Shown: positions 12,088-60,916 of the stretch, piece after piece
Numbering within the stretch: the first letter of the stretch is position 1
How the letters are laid out: the number at the start of each line of letters is the position of its first letter
Assembly: GCA_947646015.1 (NCBI GenBank)
Contig: CANSEY010000003.1
Coordinates: forward strand, 174,477 to 238,476
Origin: an uncultured Bacteroides sp.
GTDB taxonomy: Bacteria; Bacteroidota; Bacteroidia; Bacteroidales; Bacteroidaceae
Reading direction: 5' to 3'
Length of the DNA stretch: 64,000 nucleotides
Program-made: the position numbers and the translations under genes
The notes under the pieces: generated by a model
What the model saw: only the letters and a program-made list of their open reading frames with translations
Databases searched by the model: none
What the model was told of the DNA's origin: nothing

Positions 12088-12165
12088 AAACGGTAAACAA
12101 TAAATGGTGAACGATGAACAAGCTAAGTTATCTGTCCGTTGTTTACTGTTTATTGTTTACCGTTT
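12088..12165. repeat. 17-bp perfect inverted repeat upstream of rnpA
   Basis: AAACGGTAAACAATAAA at 12088-12104 is exactly complementary to TTTATTGTTTACCGTTT at 12149-12165, with a 44-base spacer that itself carries further GGTGAACGATGAAC/TGTCCGTTGTTTAC similarity. It lies between hemD and rnpA. It could form a hairpin that separates the two genes, or be a dispersed Bacteroides intergenic repeat. It has no clear T-tract. Confidence 0.6.
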
Positions 12166-25007: not shown

Positions 25008-28000
25008 TTACTGGTGGGCTTTCATGCGTCCCACGTATATGTTATATAGTTCGTTCACCTTCGGGGTATAGTTACCGGCGAGTTTAGACTTATATTTCTC
25101 CATCATTTTGACTTCCATATCCAGTGCGCTGAGGTGCATGATAAATTCACGCTGCGACATGAGCAGATGATTGTCGTCCAGGCTGAGGTACCAGGTGAGG
25201 TATTCTACAGACTTGTTTGCCAGTTCATCGATAATCTGGTCGGCTTTCGTATTGTTTCCCAACTGGTAGTAAGCTTCTGCCATTTCGAGTGCTCCGTTCT
25301 GTACATCGTAGGGCACGTTGAAAGCCGGAATCATCTTTTCGGCGTATTCCAGTGCTGCCAGCGCTTTGTCCTTTTTGCCTTCTTTCATCAGCTGGGTGAT
25401 CAGTTGGGCAAAGATGCGGCGATGGGTGTAGCACATGCGCATCGTATTCTCGTCGATGTAGATGCCGGGTTTGTCGATGCCTCCGAACTTGAACTTGTTC
25501 ATCAGGTTGTCATACATCTTTTCACTGTCGATGGTGGCTCCGAGAGCTTCCGTATCGAACGGTGTGAAGCGGTATGTCAGACCCTCCTGAATGAAATGCT
25601 CGCGCATGTTCAGCTGATTGTCCGTACCGACGGTGATGGCCATGTAAATGGGGCGTTCCCAGTTGGCATTGGCCAGCATTTCGAGCATCATCAACTCGCT
25701 CTTGTAGAGAGCCCGTTTCGGGTTACCCTTTTCGTCTTTGAGCGATATGTGCATGTAGTCGGGGATGGAGTCACCCAATGCCTCCGGAATCATCATACCC
25801 GAACGGCGAACGGCTTCTTTGTCGATTTTGACAACGATGCTGTCGGTCGGTATCACTGCTTGTCCGTCTTTGGTGCGTACCCAATATTTCAGGATGTTCT
25901 TCAGTTCGTAAGGATTATCGCCGAACTGGGCACGGATATTGTTCAGTGCTTCCGGATTCTTGCCGTTCAGCACCTCTTCTTCGGCGGCTTTGTAGGCTTT
26001 GTCGATCTGCTTCTTGAAGTCCGGACGGATGGGGACGTATTCGTTTTGACCTTCCATGTATTCCGTTCTGTCCCAAGTGATGGGCAGTGCCGGAGAGTCG
26101 TAGGCCGGACGTTTCATCTGGTCGATGTACCAGTCGGTCTGGAGGTAGCTCAGGTTACAGGTACGTGCGTCGGTGCGGAAGCCTTCGGTTTCTTGGTTGT
26201 ACCACAACGGGAAGGTATCGTTATCACCGTTGGTATAGATGATCGGGTTGCCGCTTTCCTGAAGTGACATCAGGTAGTTCTGTCCGAAGTCGCGTGCCAC
26301 GTAGCGTCCGCTGCGGTCGTGGTCGTCCCAGGTCTGGCTCGCCATCTGTATGGGTACGAGCAGGCAGACTGCCGACGTGAGGGCTGCTGCGGGGACTTCC
26401 TTCATGTAGTTGCGCAGCAGGTGTACGATGCCCGCCACACCCATGCCGATCCAGATGGCAAAGGCATAGAAGGAACCGGCGTAGGCATAGTCACGTTCGC
26501 GCGGCTGTCCGGGTGTCTGGTTGAGGTAAAGCACAATGGCGATACCGGTCATGAAGAACAGGAAGAATACCACCCAGAACTGCTGGATACCTTTCTGACC
26601 GCGCCATGCCTGCCAGAAGAGTCCGATGATTCCCAGTATGAGGGGGAGACAATAGAAAACGTTGTGTCCCTTGTTGTCTTTCAGTTCTTGCGGGAGCATG
26701 TTCTGGTCGCCATACAGAAGGTTGTCGATGAACGGTATGCCGGTGATCCAGTTGCCGTGTTCTATTTCGCCGCTGCTTTGGATGTCGTTCTGCCGTCCGG
26801 CAAAGTTCCACATGAAGTAGCGCCAGTACATGAAGTTGAGCTGGTAGGAGAAGAAGAACTTGATGTTGTCCCACTGGGTTGGCATGTTCACCATCAGCAT
26901 CTCTCCGCATTGATCGTAGGGCACGTCGTAGCCGGTGATATCTTGCCAGGACTTATAGTAGGCGGTGTGTGCCGAGCTGTACATGCGGGGGAAGAGCATG
27001 TTTTGCGCGTATTCATATTCCACACGTCCCGGCAGTTCAACGTAAGAGTCTTTTTCGTCGGGTGAGGTTTTCTCTTTACGGACGTATTTGGTGTCTGTAC
27101 TTTTCTGGCGGGGTACGCAATAGCCGTCTTCCACATCGAGGGCCACTTTCGAGGAGTAGGCCGGTCCGTAGAACAGCGGACGGGTTCCGTACTGTTCGCG
27201 TCCCAGATACTCACCCAGCGTGAAGATGTCTTCCGGGGAGTTCTGATCCATCGGTGTATTGGCTACCGAGCGGATCACGATCAGGGCATACGAGGAGTAT
27301 CCCACCATGATCATCATCGTACAGAGCAGGGCGGTGTTCATGGTACGGGCCGACATGCGTATCTTTTCGTTCAGCTTTGACGCGAAGAGGTAGGCCGCCA
27401 GTACTCCCAGCACCAGGATACCGATGATGACAGCACTTGCTCCGTGCCCGTAGAAGGGGATACCGAGCATGGCGATGGTCAGCAGAAAAGAGAGGTTCAT
27501 GCGGGTGCGGCTCTTCTCGTTGTAGCTTTCGTATATACCCCAGATGATGGCGGCTGCCAGCAGGGCTACATAAACGATGACACCGGTGTTGAACGGCATG
27601 CCCAGTGAGTTGACGAACAGCAGTTCGAACCAGCCGCCTACTTTTACGACACCGGGAACAATACCATAAAGTACGGCTGCCACCAATACCATGGAGCCGG
27701 CCAGTGCCAGCAGAGATCCTTTGGCGTTGGCGCCCGGCACTTTCTTGTAGTAGTATACCAGTACGATGGCCGGCAGACAGAGCAGGTTGAGCAGGTGCAC
27801 ACCGATGCTGAGTCCGGTCAGATAGGCGATCAGGATGATCCAGCGGTCGCTATGCGGCTGGTCGGCTACGTCTTCCCATTTCAATATCAGCCAGAAAACG
27901 ATGGCCGTAAACATGGAAGAGTAGGCGTATACTTCGCCTTCTACGGCCGAAAACCAGAATGTATCGCTGAATGTATAGGCCAATGCGCCTACCAGTCCCG

Positions 28001-28367
28001 ATCCCATGACGGTGATCAGTTGTCCGCGGGTGATGTTCGTTTCGTCTGTGATGACGAGTTTACGCACCAGGTGCGTGATGCTCCAGAAAAGGAACAGGAT
28101 GCAGGCACCGCTCATCAGCGCACTCATGTAGTTCACCATTTTGGCTACCAGTGCCGGATCGCTGACGAATTGTGTGAAAAGGTTGGCGGTGAGCATAAAG
28201 AAGGGTGCTCCGGGGGGATGGCCTACTTCCAGTTTATAGGCGGTGGTGATGAATTCCGGGCAGTCCCAGAAACTGGCTGTGGGCTCTATCGTCATGCAAT
28301 AGACGGTTGCGGCGATCAGGAAAGTGATCCAACCCACGAGGTTGTTTACGGTTTTGTACTGTTTCAT
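25008..28367 (-). CDS. DUF2723 large membrane protein (GT117-like) with C-terminal TPR region
   Basis: A 1119-residue membrane protein. The N-terminal half has a dozen or so membrane segments; the start NLVGWITFLIAATVYCMTIEPTASFWDCPEFI and the nearby LEVGHPPGAPFF are the DUF2723 hallmark, with an early Asp-Cys-Pro-Glu motif like those in lipid-linked sugar glycosyltransferases. The C-terminal soluble part contains TPR-like helices (AEAYYQLGNNTKADQIIDELA). Members are assigned to the GT117 family in Bacteroidetes and are probably protein or lipid glycosyltransferases. A TATCTTTG -7 element on the reverse strand lies at 28409-28416, and the invertible promoter at 28584-28615 also points this way. 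Confidence 0.85.
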   Translation of the reverse strand: MKQYKTVNNLVGWITFLIAATVYCMTIEPTASFWDCPEFITTAYKLEVGHPPGAPFFMLTANLFTQFVSDPALVAKMVNYMSALMSGACILFLFWSITHLVRKLVITDETNITRGQLITVMGSGLVGALAYTFSDTFWFSAVEGEVYAYSSMFTAIVFWLILKWEDVADQPHSDRWIILIAYLTGLSIGVHLLNLLCLPAIVLVYYYKKVPGANAKGSLLALAGSMVLVAAVLYGIVPGVVKVGGWFELLFVNSLGMPFNTGVIVYVALLAAAIIWGIYESYNEKSRTRMNLSFLLTIAMLGIPFYGHGASAVIIGILVLGVLAAYLFASKLNEKIRMSARTMNTALLCTMMIMVGYSSYALIVIRSVANTPMDQNSPEDIFTLGEYLGREQYGTRPLFYGPAYSSKVALDVEDGYCVPRQKSTDTKYVRKEKTSPDEKDSYVELPGRVEYEYAQNMLFPRMYSSAHTAYYKSWQDITGYDVPYDQCGEMLMVNMPTQWDNIKFFFSYQLNFMYWRYFMWNFAGRQNDIQSSGEIEHGNWITGIPFIDNLLYGDQNMLPQELKDNKGHNVFYCLPLILGIIGLFWQAWRGQKGIQQFWVVFFLFFMTGIAIVLYLNQTPGQPRERDYAYAGSFYAFAIWIGMGVAGIVHLLRNYMKEVPAAALTSAVCLLVPIQMASQTWDDHDRSGRYVARDFGQNYLMSLQESGNPIIYTNGDNDTFPLWYNQETEGFRTDARTCNLSYLQTDWYIDQMKRPAYDSPALPITWDRTEYMEGQNEYVPIRPDFKKQIDKAYKAAEEEVLNGKNPEALNNIRAQFGDNPYELKNILKYWVRTKDGQAVIPTDSIVVKIDKEAVRRSGMMIPEALGDSIPDYMHISLKDEKGNPKRALYKSELMMLEMLANANWERPIYMAITVGTDNQLNMREHFIQEGLTYRFTPFDTEALGATIDSEKMYDNLMNKFKFGGIDKPGIYIDENTMRMCYTHRRIFAQLITQLMKEGKKDKALAALEYAEKMIPAFNVPYDVQNGALEMAEAYYQLGNNTKADQIIDELANKSVEYLTWYLSLDDNHLLMSQREFIMHLSALDMEVKMMEKYKSKLAGNYTPKVNELYNIYVGRMKAHQ

Positions 28368-28408: not shown

Positions 28409-28416
28409 CAAAGATA
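28409..28416 (-). promoter_or_regulatory. Candidate -7 element for DUF2723
   Basis: CAAAGATA on the forward strand, read as TATCTTTG on the reverse strand, 42 bases before the DUF2723 start. No -33 match was seen at the right spacing. Confidence 0.4.
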
Positions 28417-28555: not shown

Positions 28556-28716
28556 TGTTTCAAAAGACGTTCGTCTGATGCAACAAAGATAAGACGCTTT
28601 TTTCATCTGTGCAAATATTTCTACATTGTTTTAATTATCAGTCATTTATATCTTCCTTTGGCCTTCAGTGAGCAGAGCCAAAACCGTGTTTCAAAAAAGG
28701 AACGTCTTTTGAAACA
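28556..28716. promoter_or_regulatory. Putative invertible promoter module A (repeat-bounded, 161 bp)
   Basis: The 17-mer TGTTTCAAAAGACGTTC at 28556-28572 recurs as its exact reverse complement at 28700-28716. The left site reads AGACGTTCGT, matching the ARACGTWCGT core I recall for Mpi-type serine recombinase sites in B. fragilis; the right site reads AGACGTTCCT, one base off. Each site is also a partial palindrome (TGTTTCAAAA...TTTTGAAACA at the right end). Between them is a perfect reverse-strand promoter. Inversion would turn the promoter toward the lipoprotein gene at 28863. The inversion itself is inferred, not seen. Confidence 0.75.
28584..28615 (-). promoter_or_regulatory. Promoter inside module A, pointing away from the lipoprotein gene
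   Basis: Reverse strand: TTTG (28612-28615), 20 bases, TATCTTTG (28584-28591), a full match to the Bacteroides consensus. In this orientation it reads left toward DUF2723. After inversion its -7 element would sit at about 28681-28688 on the forward strand, about 175 bases before the lipoprotein start. Confidence 0.85.
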
Positions 28717-28862
28717 CAAGGGTCGTTCTATCTATCTAATTTACACAAACTTACCGCAAAATAAAAGCTGTATTCACAGCCTGCCATAGCCGGCCTGCCC
28801 ATTCTTAATGGGAAGGCCTTGCTGAGTATGATCTATTTTATTCATTTTTAAACATTTGAGTT

Positions 28863-30455
28863 ATGAATACGAAGACAAAACTTCTGTATGTAGGCTTTCG
28901 TGCGTTAAACACATGCTGTCTGTACGCGGCTTTTTTAATGATAACATCGTGTGGCGACAATGTTGTGAACCCCGACAGCCCGGAACCGGACGGGGAGGAT
29001 ATGATTCCTGTTACGGTCAGCCGGGTTGAGGATGGCAATTATATGGAAAGCCATGTTGATACTCCCGACACAACCGGGGGAAGAACGCTTGTAGACGAAT
29101 GGGTGCCGGTGAAAGAGCCACCCGCCAGCAGGGCCATACCCGCTGCCGTGCCTTACGAGGGGCCTTCAGCGGTACGGATGACGCTCCGCGAAGAGCCACA
29201 GGTCACTACCCGTGCCGCTACATTGGGCAACGGCATTTATTTCCGGTTGATCGCTTTCCGTAAAGTAGGCAGCAATTACGTATTCCAGTCGGCTGCGGAT
29301 TTTACGACAAACGGGGCTTCCGCTCCCACACTCAGGCAAGGAAATCTGCTCACCAGAGCAGGAACTGTCCGTGTGATCGGATACTCGTTCAATAGTACGG
29401 CAGGGATGGGAACGATCCCTTCATCCTATACTTATAACAGTACTTCCGTCACTATCCCGAATATGAACAGTGACTTTATGGTCTATGACTCGGGGGACAT
29501 AGCGAATGTGAGCACAATCAGCCACAACCTGTCGGTTAGTTTCACGCAAAAACTCTGCAAGCTGACGGTTAAACTCTCCTTGTCGCAGTTTGGGAGCAAC
29601 ACGTTTACCAACTGTACGGGGGTATACATTTCTCAGGGCGGCAATGCGTCTGCCTGGACGATAGGTCCCTCTACAAATAATGTAAGTGCCAATACCGGAA
29701 ATACACCTACATTCAATATAGCCAATAATTCGACTGCCACTGTACGGTTAGTCCCTTTTTCGGGTTCCCGGGCAATCACGGTACATATCGGTACGTTGAA
29801 ACTTAGTAATTACTTCAATGCGAATAACCGGAATATCACCTCAAGCCAGAATGTACAGTTGCTGCCGGGAAAGAGTTATACCATTACACTGAAGTTTGAG
29901 TTAGGGGTACAATTGGCGGCAAGCGACATTAACCTGACACAAAACGGATGTACGGCAAGTGATAAAAATTATTTGGCGAAGTTAAGATGGGCCACAGGAA
30001 ATTTGAAGAGTACCGGAAATACGAATTACGTATGGACTTCTTCAACAGATAGAGGTTATTATTATACATTTTATAGCACTTATACAGGGAACAAAACAAC
30101 CAATAACACAGATCCATGTTCTAAATTGAATACTGCGTACTATGGTACAGGGTGGCGTACTCCATCTGAAAATGACTACATTTCATTATCCCGATGTACA
30201 GATAAGGTGTTGACAAATGGTGGCATGTGGTTTATGAATAAAAGTATTGGTGTTTTTCTATTAGCTTCTGGAGGAATTGGTTGGGGTGGAGGTAGTTCGA
30301 CTGGTGATCCTACTAGTGATGGGGGTACAGGAGGACAGTATTGGAGTTCGACATATAATAAAAACGATGCTAAACGCTTGGTCTTTGCTAATGGTTCAGC
30401 AGGAATAGGCCTTGATTATTTGGCATCCGGGCTGGCAGTTCGTTGTGTTAAATAA
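28863..30455 (+). CDS. Fimbrillin-like lipoprotein with C-terminal FISUMP domain (paralogue 1)
   Basis: A 530-residue surface lipoprotein with lipobox MITSC. After a variable acidic linker (PDSPEPDGEDM), a fimbrillin-like domain begins near residue 120 (GIYFRLIAFRKVGSNYVFQSAADF, then VRVIGYSFNS and SHNLSVSFTQKLCKLTVKL). From about residue 375 the C-terminus is of the FISUMP (Fib_succ_major) type: LRWATGNLKSTGN, YYYTFYSTYTGN, DPCSKLN, GWRTPSENDYISLSRC and the terminal LAVRCVK. It is a close paralogue of the protein at 30985. A fimbrial or adhesin role is inferred. In this assembly the nearest strong promoter (module A) points away from it. Confidence 0.8.
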   Translation: MNTKTKLLYVGFRALNTCCLYAAFLMITSCGDNVVNPDSPEPDGEDMIPVTVSRVEDGNYMESHVDTPDTTGGRTLVDEWVPVKEPPASRAIPAAVPYEGPSAVRMTLREEPQVTTRAATLGNGIYFRLIAFRKVGSNYVFQSAADFTTNGASAPTLRQGNLLTRAGTVRVIGYSFNSTAGMGTIPSSYTYNSTSVTIPNMNSDFMVYDSGDIANVSTISHNLSVSFTQKLCKLTVKLSLSQFGSNTFTNCTGVYISQGGNASAWTIGPSTNNVSANTGNTPTFNIANNSTATVRLVPFSGSRAITVHIGTLKLSNYFNANNRNITSSQNVQLLPGKSYTITLKFELGVQLAASDINLTQNGCTASDKNYLAKLRWATGNLKSTGNTNYVWTSSTDRGYYYTFYSTYTGNKTTNNTDPCSKLNTAYYGTGWRTPSENDYISLSRCTDKVLTNGGMWFMNKSIGVFLLASGGIGWGGGSSTGDPTSDGGTGGQYWSSTYNKNDAKRLVFANGSAGIGLDYLASGLAVRCVK

Positions 30456-30672: not shown

Positions 30673-30833
30673 TGTTTCAAAAGACGTACGTCTGATGCAA
30701 CAAAGATAGGTCGCTTTTTTCGTCTGTGCAAATCTTTTTACATCATTTTAATTATCAGCCATTTATCTATCCTCCTTGCATCCAGTGCGGAGAGTAAAAA
30801 TGATGTTTCAAAAGACGTACGTTTTTTGAAACA
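30673..30833. promoter_or_regulatory. Putative invertible promoter module B (repeat-bounded, 161 bp)
   Basis: Two 30-bp, nearly palindromic sites bound the module: 30673-30702 (core AGACGTACGTCT) and 30804-30833 (core AGACGTACGT, outer arms TGTTTCAAAA and TTTTGAAACA). Both cores match ARACGTWCGT. Because the sites are palindromic, they form both direct and inverted repeats. Length (161 bp), internal sequence and promoter position are the same as in module A, so the two modules are duplicates. Inversion would direct the promoter at the lipoprotein gene at 30985. Inversion is inferred. Confidence 0.75.
30701..30732 (-). promoter_or_regulatory. Promoter inside module B, pointing away from the second lipoprotein gene
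   Basis: Reverse strand: TTTG (30729-30732), 20 bases, TATCTTTG (30701-30708), again a full consensus match. As oriented it would make an antisense transcript toward the first lipoprotein gene. Inverted, its -7 element would lie at about 30798-30805 on the forward strand. Confidence 0.85.
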
Positions 30834-30984
30834 CCATTGTGTATTCAAGACCGTCATATCTGATTGTAATACACAAACTTACGCATAATAAAAGTGGTAT
30901 CAAACAGCCTTTCCGGACTCATACGAAGATGTATAGGTCCGCAATGCATCTTTGATACGATTATTCACTTTAATATCTTAGTAT

Positions 30985-32598
30985 ATGAATAGAACTTTTA
31001 TTATGCGAGAGTGTCTCGGTAAAGCCTTATGGCTGTGTTTTTGCCTTTCGATAGCAGGATGTGCCGAAGATGACAGAATGACTCCCCTGTCGGCTGACAG
31101 CGGGGATACTGCCGACGAGCTAATTCCCATCCATATCAGTCTGACGGGTGACAACGACTATCATTCTTCCTCTTTTAACGACGCTTCGACCCGTAGCCAC
31201 TCTCCCCTGATCGCCGAATGGGTGGGAGTAAAAGCTTTCTCACCTACACGCACAGGAGAGCAACCGGACTACGAAGGTCCCCGGATAGCCTCGATGGAAC
31301 TGACGGAAGATACCCTGCCCCGTGTAAGTACCCGTGCAACAGTGCCTGTGGAAGTTCGTTTCCGGCTGATTGCTTTCCGGAAGTCCGGAAGTGACTATGT
31401 CTTCCAGTCGGCTGCCGATTACGCCTCCAATGGTACGGGCACTCCTGTACTCAAACAAGGGAAACTGCTGACACGCTCGGGAACGATACGTGTGGTGGGC
31501 TACTCCTTTAATACCACTGCCGACTTGGGAGATATGCCTTCCACGTATGCCTACAACAGCAGTACAGTGTCTATCCCTGACATGACCAAGGACTTCATGA
31601 CCTTCGATTCCGGAGATATAACGAATGTAAACAGCCTGAGCCACAATCTTCCGGTGAGTTTCAATCAGAAGTTGTGCAAACTGACAATTACCATCAGTCC
31701 CACCGGATTTCCAAGCAATACGATCACCAATTGCACGGGTGTATATGTAAAGCAAGGGGGAAACTCCACATCATGGAAGATCGGTCCTTCGACCAATGTG
31801 GTAGCCGCCAACACGAATAATACGGCGGCATTCAGTCCGAGCACGGCCCTGAGTACAACCATACGCATGGTTCCGTTTGCAGGGGCCAGAACGATTACAG
31901 TGCATTTCAATACGCTGACAATAAGCGGACGGACCATTCCCAATAATACGGAAATCACCTCCACCCAAAGCATACAGTTGAAAGAGGGAAAAAGCTATAC
32001 GATGAAAATACAGTTTAAGAAAACCATCGGAATTAATGTACCCTCCGGAAGTATCAATTTAACTACAAATGGTTGTTCCTCAGCCGATAAGACAGCGTTA
32101 GCCAAGCTGATCTGGGCAGACGGGAATCTGAAAAGCACCGGATCTGCTAATTATGTGTGGGGGACTTATTCAGAATATGGATATTATTACACATGGAAAA
32201 GTACATATACGGGAAATACATCACTCAATAATACCGATCCTTGCCCAAAACTTAAAAGTGATTACGGAACGGGGTGGCGTACCCCTTCAAAAGATGAAAT
32301 GGACAAGTTATCCAGATGTACGAATAAAGCTGTTGTAACCAACGGAGGTAATAAGGGATTTTGGTTTATGAACTCAACAATAGGACTTTTCTTACCATTT
32401 GGTGGATCTCACGGTGGCGCTACAGGAAGTAAGACAACTCCTCCAGGCAATGCCGGTTCAGAAGGAGCTTACTGGTGCCTTGATGCTAATGGTTCAACAT
32501 ATGGTTATCTACTATATTTTACTACTGGTGGTGAATCCCGAACGGGCCACTATCCAAAGACTAATGGACAATCTGTCCGTTGCGTGAAAAACAAATAA
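30985..32598 (+). CDS. Fimbrillin-like lipoprotein with C-terminal FISUMP domain (paralogue 2)
   Basis: A 537-residue lipoprotein with lipobox SIAGC. The middle part (FRLIAFRKSGSDYVFQSAAD, GTIRVVGYSFNTTAD, LSHNLPVSFNQKLCKLTI) and the C-terminal FISUMP part (LIWADGNLKSTGSANYVW, DPCPKLKSDYGTGWRTPS, SVRCVKNK) track paralogue 1 almost block for block, while the N-terminal linker and the region just before the last 30 residues differ. A second in-frame ATG at 31003 is possible. Followed after 28 bases by the DUF4469 gene. A surface adhesin or fimbrial subunit role is inferred. Confidence 0.8.
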   Translation: MNRTFIMRECLGKALWLCFCLSIAGCAEDDRMTPLSADSGDTADELIPIHISLTGDNDYHSSSFNDASTRSHSPLIAEWVGVKAFSPTRTGEQPDYEGPRIASMELTEDTLPRVSTRATVPVEVRFRLIAFRKSGSDYVFQSAADYASNGTGTPVLKQGKLLTRSGTIRVVGYSFNTTADLGDMPSTYAYNSSTVSIPDMTKDFMTFDSGDITNVNSLSHNLPVSFNQKLCKLTITISPTGFPSNTITNCTGVYVKQGGNSTSWKIGPSTNVVAANTNNTAAFSPSTALSTTIRMVPFAGARTITVHFNTLTISGRTIPNNTEITSTQSIQLKEGKSYTMKIQFKKTIGINVPSGSINLTTNGCSSADKTALAKLIWADGNLKSTGSANYVWGTYSEYGYYYTWKSTYTGNTSLNNTDPCPKLKSDYGTGWRTPSKDEMDKLSRCTNKAVVTNGGNKGFWFMNSTIGLFLPFGGSHGGATGSKTTPPGNAGSEGAYWCLDANGSTYGYLLYFTTGGESRTGHYPKTNGQSVRCVKNK

Positions 32599-32626: not shown

Positions 32627-33385
32627 ATGAAAACCGAACTTAAAGGCTGGCTTGCGGACAATACCGTGACCACCGACAACAAAGAAGACAAAATCCTGGT
32701 ATTGGAAAGCGCCGGAAACCTGACACTATCCGATGTACTGGATGAAATGAAGAAAGAAGATACCGGCTTGCGGGCAGAGACTTTAAAGCATGCCGTCGAT
32801 CTCTTTCAGCGTACGGTATCGGAATTGGTACTGAACGGATACTCTGTCAATACGGGGCTTTTTCGTGCCGTACCCCAGTTTCGCGGGGTGATAGACGGTG
32901 GAGTATGGAATCCCGAGAAAAATTCTATCTATGTTTCTTTCAATCAGGATAAGGATTTACGTGAAGCTATCGCACGGACCGGCGTGAAAATTCTGGGAGC
33001 CAAAGGTGACCCGGCCTACTTCATCGGCGGTGAAGACGCCGCTACCCGAGCTACGGATGGTAGTGCAACTGCCGGACGTAACTATCGTCTGCAAGGAAAG
33101 AATATTAAAGTAACTGGTACAGACTCTGCAGTGGGTATCGTCTTGATTGATGAGAAAGGTACGGAAACAAAGTTGCCGATGGATATGATCGCCGTAAACA
33201 ACCCTTCGGAAGTGTTGGTGCTACTTCCTGCAGACTTAAAAGACGGAGTCTATGAATTACGACTGACTACCCAGTTTTCAACCGGTAATAAGTTGCTGAA
33301 AGTACCTCGTACAGTGATACGTAGCCTGGTTATTGGTCTTCCTTCGGGAGGGGATGGTGATATTGTAGATGATCCTACAGCCTGA
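32627..33385 (+). CDS. DUF4469 protein with HU/IHF-like N-terminal domain
   Basis: A 252-residue protein. Residues 1-125 resemble the HU-like domain of Bvu_2165-type proteins (LSDVLDEMKKEDTGLRAETLKHAVDLFQRTVSELVLNGYSVNTGLFRAVPQFRG). The C-terminal half (YRLQGKNIKVTGTDSAVGIVLIDEKGTE, LPADLKDGVYELRLTTQFS) fits the DUF4469 Ig-like/beta-sandwich domain. No signal peptide, so it is probably cytoplasmic. It lies 28 bases after paralogue 2 and is probably transcribed with it, so it would share its promoter switching. DNA binding is inferred from the fold. Confidence 0.8.
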   Translation: MKTELKGWLADNTVTTDNKEDKILVLESAGNLTLSDVLDEMKKEDTGLRAETLKHAVDLFQRTVSELVLNGYSVNTGLFRAVPQFRGVIDGGVWNPEKNSIYVSFNQDKDLREAIARTGVKILGAKGDPAYFIGGEDAATRATDGSATAGRNYRLQGKNIKVTGTDSAVGIVLIDEKGTETKLPMDMIAVNNPSEVLVLLPADLKDGVYELRLTTQFSTGNKLLKVPRTVIRSLVIGLPSGGDGDIVDDPTA

Positions 33386-59227: not shown

Positions 59228-60916
59228 ATGAATAAGACATTTGTCGGTTTTATCTTTTTATTGTTTTTAGTGGGCGGAGTAGTTTCTTGTCAACGTTCCT
59301 CGTCACCGTATCCGTATTCTTTGAGATATGCCGATTCTTTGATGGAGATATCTCCTGAACGTACGTTGGCTTATCTTCGTAAACTTGATGTTTCTACTTA
59401 TTCAGCGGGTGACAGGGCATACTTTAGCTTACTGTTCACGCAGGCTACTGATAAAAATATGCTTTCTCTTCTTCCATGTGACTCTTTGATTGATACTGCA
59501 TTAGATTATTATATTAAAAAAGATGGTGTCAATTGGGCTAAAGCTTGGCTTTATAAAGGCCGGATTCAAAAAAAAATGAATATGACTGAACAGGCTTTGA
59601 AGAGTTGCTTTACTGCTCTGCAGGGAGTTGAAGGAAATACCGGGGAGGAATTAAAACTGAAAGGAATGCTATATGAAGATATGGGATCGATTTATTTACA
59701 TCAATCTCTTTATCAGAAAGCGTTTGATGCGTTTTATCGCTCTTATCAATGTGATTCTTTACTGAATGACCATAGATTGGTAATGTATCCTTTGTCAAAT
59801 ATGGGGTGGGTGCGTGTGATTCAAGGAAAAACGGTAGAAGCTTTTTATTATTTGAACCAATCTATACAATTAGCTTTGAGATTGAATGATTCAGCTTTTG
59901 TTAGTGATATATATGAACGAATGAGTTTGAATTGTGAGAATGTCGATTCTGCTTTCCTATATGCCCATTTGTCACATCAATATTTGACAAAGGATGGCGA
60001 CTCTATTAGTTTATGGTTAACATTTGGTGATTTGTATTTAGACAAGCAAGAACTAGACTCTGCTGAATATTATTTAAAGCGTATACTTGATACTGCTGAT
60101 TTTAAAAGGAAGATTCTAGCGTCGTATTCTTTGGCTGAAGTCGAGAAGATTAGGGGTAATTATCAACGGGCCTTTGAATATCAGTCTTATTATGGTGATA
60201 ATATAGATTCTATTTTTTTGTTAAATAAAGCCTCCGATATTGAGCGCTTAGCGTATAAATATGATTCAGAAGCAAAAGTAGTAAAGGAAAAGGAAAAGCA
60301 GAGGTTTTTAATTCAGCAACTTTGTTATGGAGGAGTTTTGTTTCTGCTGGTTATTGTTGTAATTTTTCAACGTGTTTATCGGCGTCGTCAAATAGCTCGA
60401 TTACTGTACGAACAGCGTATAACTTATTTAAATGAGAAAACAGCCTTATCTCAATTACAAATAGAACGTTTGGAAGTTCAAATTTCTGCTTTAAAGCAGT
60501 CTGGCATGGAGCGTGAACAGGAAATAGATTTGAAACAAGCAGAATTATGCTGTGTTATTGATGAAAAAGCACGATTGCGTAACTGTTTGTTTATGGAAAC
60601 TTCTATTTTTAAGCATATTCGAGAACTAAGCACTCAACCCAGGTTGGGACAAAATGGAACAAAGGGGAGTCCGAAAGTTCTTCTTATGAAAGAACAGGAA
60701 CAATTGAAAAATATATTGTTTGGTATTTATGATGATTATATTCGATACCTTAAGGGTACTTATCCTAAAATAACAGATAATGACTGTATTTATTGTTGCT
60801 TGAAACTTTGTGAATTTGATGATCAAACCATAGCTTATTGTTTTGGTAATGTAAGCAAGCAAATTGTAGCGCAGCGGCGTTTACGATTAAAGAAAAAAAT
60901 GGCTGAAGCCAATTGA
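59228..60916 (+). CDS. TPR lipoprotein with membrane segment and C-terminal HTH-like domain
   Basis: A 562-residue membrane regulator type found widely in Bacteroides. The N-terminal lipobox is VVSC (Cys21). TPR helices span about residues 60-350 (SLYQKAFDAFYRSYQCDSLL), a membrane segment lies near 367-385 (GGVLFLLVIVVIFQRVY), and a coiled-coil follows (NEKTALSQLQIERLEVQISALKQ). The last 45 residues (ITDNDCIYCCLKLCEFDDQTIAYCFGNVSKQIVAQRRLRLKKKM) resemble a LuxR-like helix-turn-helix. It is probably a one-component regulator sensing an envelope signal. Targets are unknown; the DUF3244/C10 protease genes downstream are candidates. Confidence 0.78.
   Translation: MNKTFVGFIFLLFLVGGVVSCQRSSSPYPYSLRYADSLMEISPERTLAYLRKLDVSTYSAGDRAYFSLLFTQATDKNMLSLLPCDSLIDTALDYYIKKDGVNWAKAWLYKGRIQKKMNMTEQALKSCFTALQGVEGNTGEELKLKGMLYEDMGSIYLHQSLYQKAFDAFYRSYQCDSLLNDHRLVMYPLSNMGWVRVIQGKTVEAFYYLNQSIQLALRLNDSAFVSDIYERMSLNCENVDSAFLYAHLSHQYLTKDGDSISLWLTFGDLYLDKQELDSAEYYLKRILDTADFKRKILASYSLAEVEKIRGNYQRAFEYQSYYGDNIDSIFLLNKASDIERLAYKYDSEAKVVKEKEKQRFLIQQLCYGGVLFLLVIVVIFQRVYRRRQIARLLYEQRITYLNEKTALSQLQIERLEVQISALKQSGMEREQEIDLKQAELCCVIDEKARLRNCLFMETSIFKHIRELSTQPRLGQNGTKGSPKVLLMKEQEQLKNILFGIYDDYIRYLKGTYPKITDNDCIYCCLKLCEFDDQTIAYCFGNVSKQIVAQRRLRLKKKMAEAN

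Follow-up and report, generated by a model that had tools for sequence, protein, structure and literature searches.

A probable Mpi-class invertible promoter ahead of a lipoprotein gene in Bacteroides

The DNA analysed here, hereafter the window, is a stretch of 64,000 nucleotides from the draft genome of an uncultured Bacteroides sp. (G000; 100 contigs, 4.91 Mb, completeness 74.7%). It carries a lipoprotein gene, lipoprotein A, which is preceded by a 161-bp module (module A, 28556-28716) bounded by two 30-bp sites and enclosing a Bacteroides-type promoter (Table 1). A second module (module B, 30673-30833), absent from the preliminary description of this DNA, has the same length and layout and precedes the lipoprotein B gene at 30985. 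In its present OFF orientation, promoter B would face the end of lipoprotein A and read in antisense to it. The HU-type/DUF4469 gene downstream is perhaps co-transcribed with lipoprotein B. A relative of this gene is found in 9 of 12 arrays; it is missing from two of the others (L026 and L058), and the third (L070) stops before that position.

Table 1. Genes, putative recombination sites and promoters at the locus
Feature	Position	Strand	Remarks
TMEM260-like gene	25008-28367	minus	OFF-oriented promoter A would read into the gene in sense
Left site, module A	28556-28585	.	exact repeat in the outer 17 bp (28556-28572); central TT, 28570-28571
Promoter A, Bacteroides-type TTTG-N20-TATCTTTG	28584-28615	minus	OFF orientation
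Right site, module A	28687-28716	.	exact inverted 17 bp at 28700-28716; centre AA, 28701-28702
Lipoprotein A, 530 aa	28863-30455	+	lipobox-like start; C-terminal Lcl_C/FISUMP-like domain below cut-off; N-terminal part fimbrillin-like by family and weak fold matches
Left site, module B	30673-30702	.	centre TA
Promoter B	30701-30732	minus	OFF orientation
Right site, module B	30804-30833	.	centre TA
Lipoprotein B, 537 aa	30985-32598	+	50% identity to lipoprotein A
HU-type DNA-binding/DUF4469 gene	32627-33385	+	28 bp 3' of lipoprotein B

The preliminary description had placed an exact 17-bp inverted repeat around module A, and the two arms (TGTTTCAAAAGACGTTC at 28556-28572 and its complement at 28700-28716) do pair at 17 of 17 positions. 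When extended to 30 nt each, with 101 nt between them, the arms are 83% complementary. The promoter was likewise found as described, on the minus strand and pointing away from the lipoprotein gene at 28863, and the module is OFF as it had been drawn. After a computed inversion, promoter A lies on the plus strand at 28657-28688, 175 nt 5' of the lipoprotein A ATG. Two places in the window have exact 17-bp inverted repeats whose arms are 30-300 bp apart, as compared to 0 in 20 first-order Markov simulations, and the TTTG-N20-TATCTTTG string occurs three times, as compared to a mean of 0.06 and a maximum of 1 in 50 simulations. Thus, both the repeat and the promoter string are beyond chance. A further exact 17-bp inverted repeat, AAACGGTAAACAATAAA (12088-12104 and 12149-12165), begins shortly past one reading frame and has its second arm within the start of the next, and an exact 16-bp inverted repeat (59787-59802 and 59980-59995, 177 bp apart) lies within reading frame 59228-60916.

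The left core of module A, AGACGTTCGT (28565-28574), is an exact ARACGTWCGT and the right core has one mismatch, in agreement with the fit reported earlier. As stand-alone evidence, this short core was rejected. Its occurrence is near chance both in the window, where 18 matches with up to one mismatch were found against 11.3 expected (7 of 100 shuffles reach 18), and in the whole of G000, where 29 forward and 29 reverse exact matches compare with 18 and 27 for the reversed control. A longer form of the site, TGTTYCAAAARACGWWCGT, was enriched in the related genome G105, with 30 and 34 matches at up to 3 mismatches versus 4 and 10 for the control.

G105 is 99.2% identical to the window across 18 kb around the locus. 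We take this genome to be that of B. fragilis NCTC 9343, an assignment supported by two primers of a paper on this strain, an mpi primer that matches G105 exactly and a PSA primer that also matches. Site pairs were located in G105 with a 19-bp form of the site, and 12 promoter modules with this site class were found there: seven before UpxY capsule genes and five before lipoproteins of the family described below. The G105 coordinates of these five are 89789, 91906, 129406, 4866094 and 4868436. Use of the site by capsule loci only was accordingly rejected. All seven genes behind the capsule-side modules score above the UpxY cut-off (NF033644), all seven loci examined with a site pair outside the lipoproteins are UpxY loci, and one of the seven UpxY-locus sites matches the published PSA primer. 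No site pair was found at L093 and L094, two single-site places in G105. The proposal that the sites of module A belong to the class of capsule-promoter sites is therefore upheld at seven UpxY loci.

The lipoprotein family is present in 3 of the 99 genomes of the genus that were searched, the window's own included, and a related-locus search identified B. fragilis S82 and Q1F2 as carriers. Seven members with lipobox-like starts, as judged by eye, occur in G000; by their N-terminal parts, three are of type A, three of type B and one of type C. Between type A and type B, DNA identity along the gene is only 38-66%. In all 17 pairs computed of paralogues that belong to the same type and the same genome, DNA identity is 91-99% for residues 1-360 and 54-76% thereafter, the fall lying between about residues 300 and 390. 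Differences at 4-fold sites amount to 0.06-0.13 in residues 1-300 versus 0.43-0.61 after residue 390, in 7 of 7 pairs from G105 and Q1F2. Purifying selection at the protein level would not by itself yield this contrast, so that recombination between copies is likely. Type C, of which one copy per genome was seen, is even along its length. Orthologues keep their C-terminal tips, with protein identities of 99-100% for four type A and B pairs and 98% for the type C pair between G000 and G105. Shared blocks among the G000 copies are exact for 947-1018 bp; those at 28735-29752 and 30815-31802, for example, are about 1 kb of exact identity between paralogous loci. Such blocks may reflect recent conversion or an assembly effect in this draft, and were not accepted as proof of gene conversion.

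Lipoprotein A had been described as a fimbrillin/FISUMP protein. Weak matches across the family agree with this identity, but the scores lie below the curated cut-offs. Lipoprotein A reaches 24.6 bits with Lcl_C (cut-off 34.9) and has no match in NCBIfam; lipoprotein B reaches 23.8 with Lcl_C (cut-off 34.9) and 27.8 with TIGR02145 (cut-off 41.65). We therefore refer to both proteins as FISUMP-like rather than as filed members. Among 13 members of the family, domains at E <=0.1 were Lcl_C in 11, Fib_succ_major in 4 and Mfa_like_1 in 2 (best E 2.9e-8). No solved relative was found by sequence at E values up to 1. The predicted structure is poor (mean pLDDT 57.7) and is best after about residue 430; its top Foldseek matches, which include a streptococcal pilin (3b2m) and a B. 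fragilis adhesion protein (4h40), have TM-scores of 0.13-0.27 for the top three with this poor model, and we treat them as a lead only. Surface display of the lipoproteins and their function as adhesins are presumptive.

All 24 lipoprotein modules listed are exactly 161 bp long. The listing is confined to modules with a promoter and both arms, but no lipoprotein gene lacked a module among the 23 whose upstream DNA was in view. Modules of other sizes were observed at L027, L028 and L031-L034 (G000, G014 and G006). In 29 of 30 modules, comprising the 24 lipoprotein modules and 6 of the 7 capsule modules, the site that is predicted to fall within the leader RNA forms the weaker hairpin of the two (mean -5.5 kcal/mol, versus -10.5 kcal/mol for the far site); the exception is L088. 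This weaker hairpin could spare the leader RNA a terminator-like structure. The available part of PMC4747536 cites work on another promoter, at which more repeats between promoter and gene resulted in less transcription. Central dinucleotides differ, TT versus TA, in 12 of 12 adjacent module pairs. TT centres precede genes of types A, B and C, and TA centres precede types A and B. Since the arrays share a common descent, this alternation is no clean test of selection.

Two strains differ in the orientation of a module of this class at an orthologous locus. The end of contig C2 in G000 (L025) and a locus of B. fragilis Q1F2 (L068), from a record entitled a complete genome, align colinearly for 6.75 kb on opposite strands with 94.8% identity, whereas the 161-bp module matches at 99.4% identity on the same strand. 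Thus, the module is inverted between the two. The alignments overlap by 17 bp (L025 7275-7291), which is the repeat itself, and the breakpoints thus fall inside it. This sister module is ON in G000, where it ends 38 bp before the contig end of the draft, and OFF in Q1F2. Two draft contigs, at L025 and at L070 (S82), stop just past a module of the lipoprotein family. Such breaks are expected in an assembly where repeats are nearly identical or orientations are mixed.

The preliminary description had proposed a comparison with other assemblies for the inverted form of module A. An inverted form was seen for the sister module; the 28556 copy was OFF in each of the two assemblies that showed it (the window's genome and G105), and no ON form of it was found. 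We infer that the 28556 copy itself flips. In the regions retrieved, 22 of the 23 modules whose gene was in view were OFF (6 of 7 in G000, 5 of 5 in G105, 8 of 8 in Q1F2 and 3 of 3 in S82), suggesting that flipping may be rare or biased. So consistent an orientation would also fit a relic, that is, a module A that flips no more and leaves the lipoprotein silent. We find this scarcely credible, given that two strains have the sister module, at 99.4% identity, in opposite orientations, that the sites, promoter and length of the modules are preserved, and that the lipoprotein A gene is open over its full length.

Another explanation of the OFF state is a two-way selector, in which the promoter would drive the neighbour that it faces when OFF, in this case the TMEM260-like gene. 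Of 10 arrays checked, five, the window's among them, have a divergent upstream neighbour that would be read in sense from 189-246 bp away; in the remaining five, the neighbour (190-310 bp away) runs the other way. On this 5 and 5 split, a family-wide selector was rejected. The TMEM260-like gene also has the TATCTTTG motif just 5' of it (28409-28416, minus strand), and a selector of this kind appears unlikely to us. The reading that we favour remains a switch of the lipoprotein gene.

Serine invertases use 30-bp palindrome-like sites with a 2-bp centre, and the sites of module A fit this pattern. G105 encodes an invertase of the Mpi family (NF009949, 318.5 bits versus a cut-off of 272), whose gene lies head-to-head with that of a 379-aa XerD-like recombinase, the latter below curated cut-offs. 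This arrangement agrees with that described in the available part of PMC4747536. The preliminary description had asked for mpi to be sought in the genome. G105 and G014 carry it, but it was not found in the draft G000. There, the mpi primer had no match at up to 3 mismatches, no intact Mpi protein was found, and the 3-kb mpi region gave just a 73% match to the neighbouring gene and short matches. The best relative in G000 is a fragment of an Mpi-like recombinase (L073, G000:C51:12398-12826) with 52% identity over 143 aa and an in-frame stop. Since the draft is incomplete, the missing mpi is weak evidence of absence. The relative of the mpi-adjacent gene (L080, G000:C40:7112-8213) is 73% identical to the G105 copy, as compared to about 99% for the lipoprotein contigs C3, C22 and part of C2, a divergence that possibly reflects contamination or exchange in the draft.

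Published work assigns the capsule promoters of the UpxY loci to Mpi (PMC4747536, available part). From this work and from the site class, Mpi is most likely the invertase of module A. Flipping by a different recombinase, for example another B. fragilis invertase, would accord with the several master invertases of this species named in the same text and with the five resolvase-family matches, and no intact Mpi, in draft G000. The site of module A is, however, common to the seven capsule loci whose promoters were assigned to Mpi, and its palindrome-like form suits a serine invertase; we judge a different recombinase to be very improbable.

In our view, module A is highly likely to be an Mpi-class invertible promoter that switches the lipoprotein gene at 28863. 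In the mechanism that we propose, a serine invertase, most likely Mpi, would pair the two palindrome-like 30-bp sites, and strand exchange at the central dinucleotide (TT/AA), the predicted crossover position, would flip the 161-bp segment. In one orientation, promoter A would fire into the lipoprotein gene; in the other, present in the window, it would fire leftwards and the lipoprotein would be off. Seven such putative switches were found in G000, each ahead of a member of the lipoprotein family, whose stems are of three types and whose C-terminal domains are specific to the locus, so that cells of one strain would display different combinations. The capsule and the lipoprotein family probably have a common master switch, and individual cells could therefore vary their capsule and protein coat in concert, which would bear on their contacts with phages and the host.

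A broader interpretation is offered tentatively, as one that is less likely than not: the family may be a phase-variable adhesin repertoire of B. fragilis. Its alike leader and stem would be kept by recombination within each type, each locus would have its own lectin-like tip and its own mostly-OFF 161-bp switch, and the alternating TT and TA centres would let one invertase flip each module with no deletion or inversion of the genes that separate it from its neighbours.

Invertible promoters are established biology and are well known in B. fragilis. In the parts available, PMC4747536 gives 13 Mpi regions, of which 7 are capsular, PMC5903667 gives at least thirteen, and PMC3090145 gives 16 fin promoter regions in addition to those of the capsules. 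Subtracting 7 from 13 leaves six non-capsular Mpi regions in NCTC 9343, among which the five G105 lipoprotein modules would fit. As 7 and 5 leave one of 13, the G105 counterpart of the locus is very probably on the published list, and by these counts the locus has very probably been catalogued. A literature search joining FISUMP, phase and Bacteroides found no paper, and the available part of PMC4319957 holds nothing on these lipoprotein genes. The fresher part of the present analysis lies in the stem types with locus-specific tips, the TT/TA alternation and the weaker leader-side hairpin.

Compared with the Mpi-inverted capsule promoters of B. fragilis, the lipoprotein modules have the same site class and a Bacteroides-type promoter inside. 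They differ in length, at 161 bp versus 206-233 bp for the capsule modules (6 of 7 measured), and in what lies downstream, a lipoprotein gene here and a UpxY-led operon in the capsule loci. The invertible promoters of B. fragilis that are flipped by a tyrosine recombinase resemble the present ones in serving surface genes of the same species, but differ in the class of recombinase that they use.
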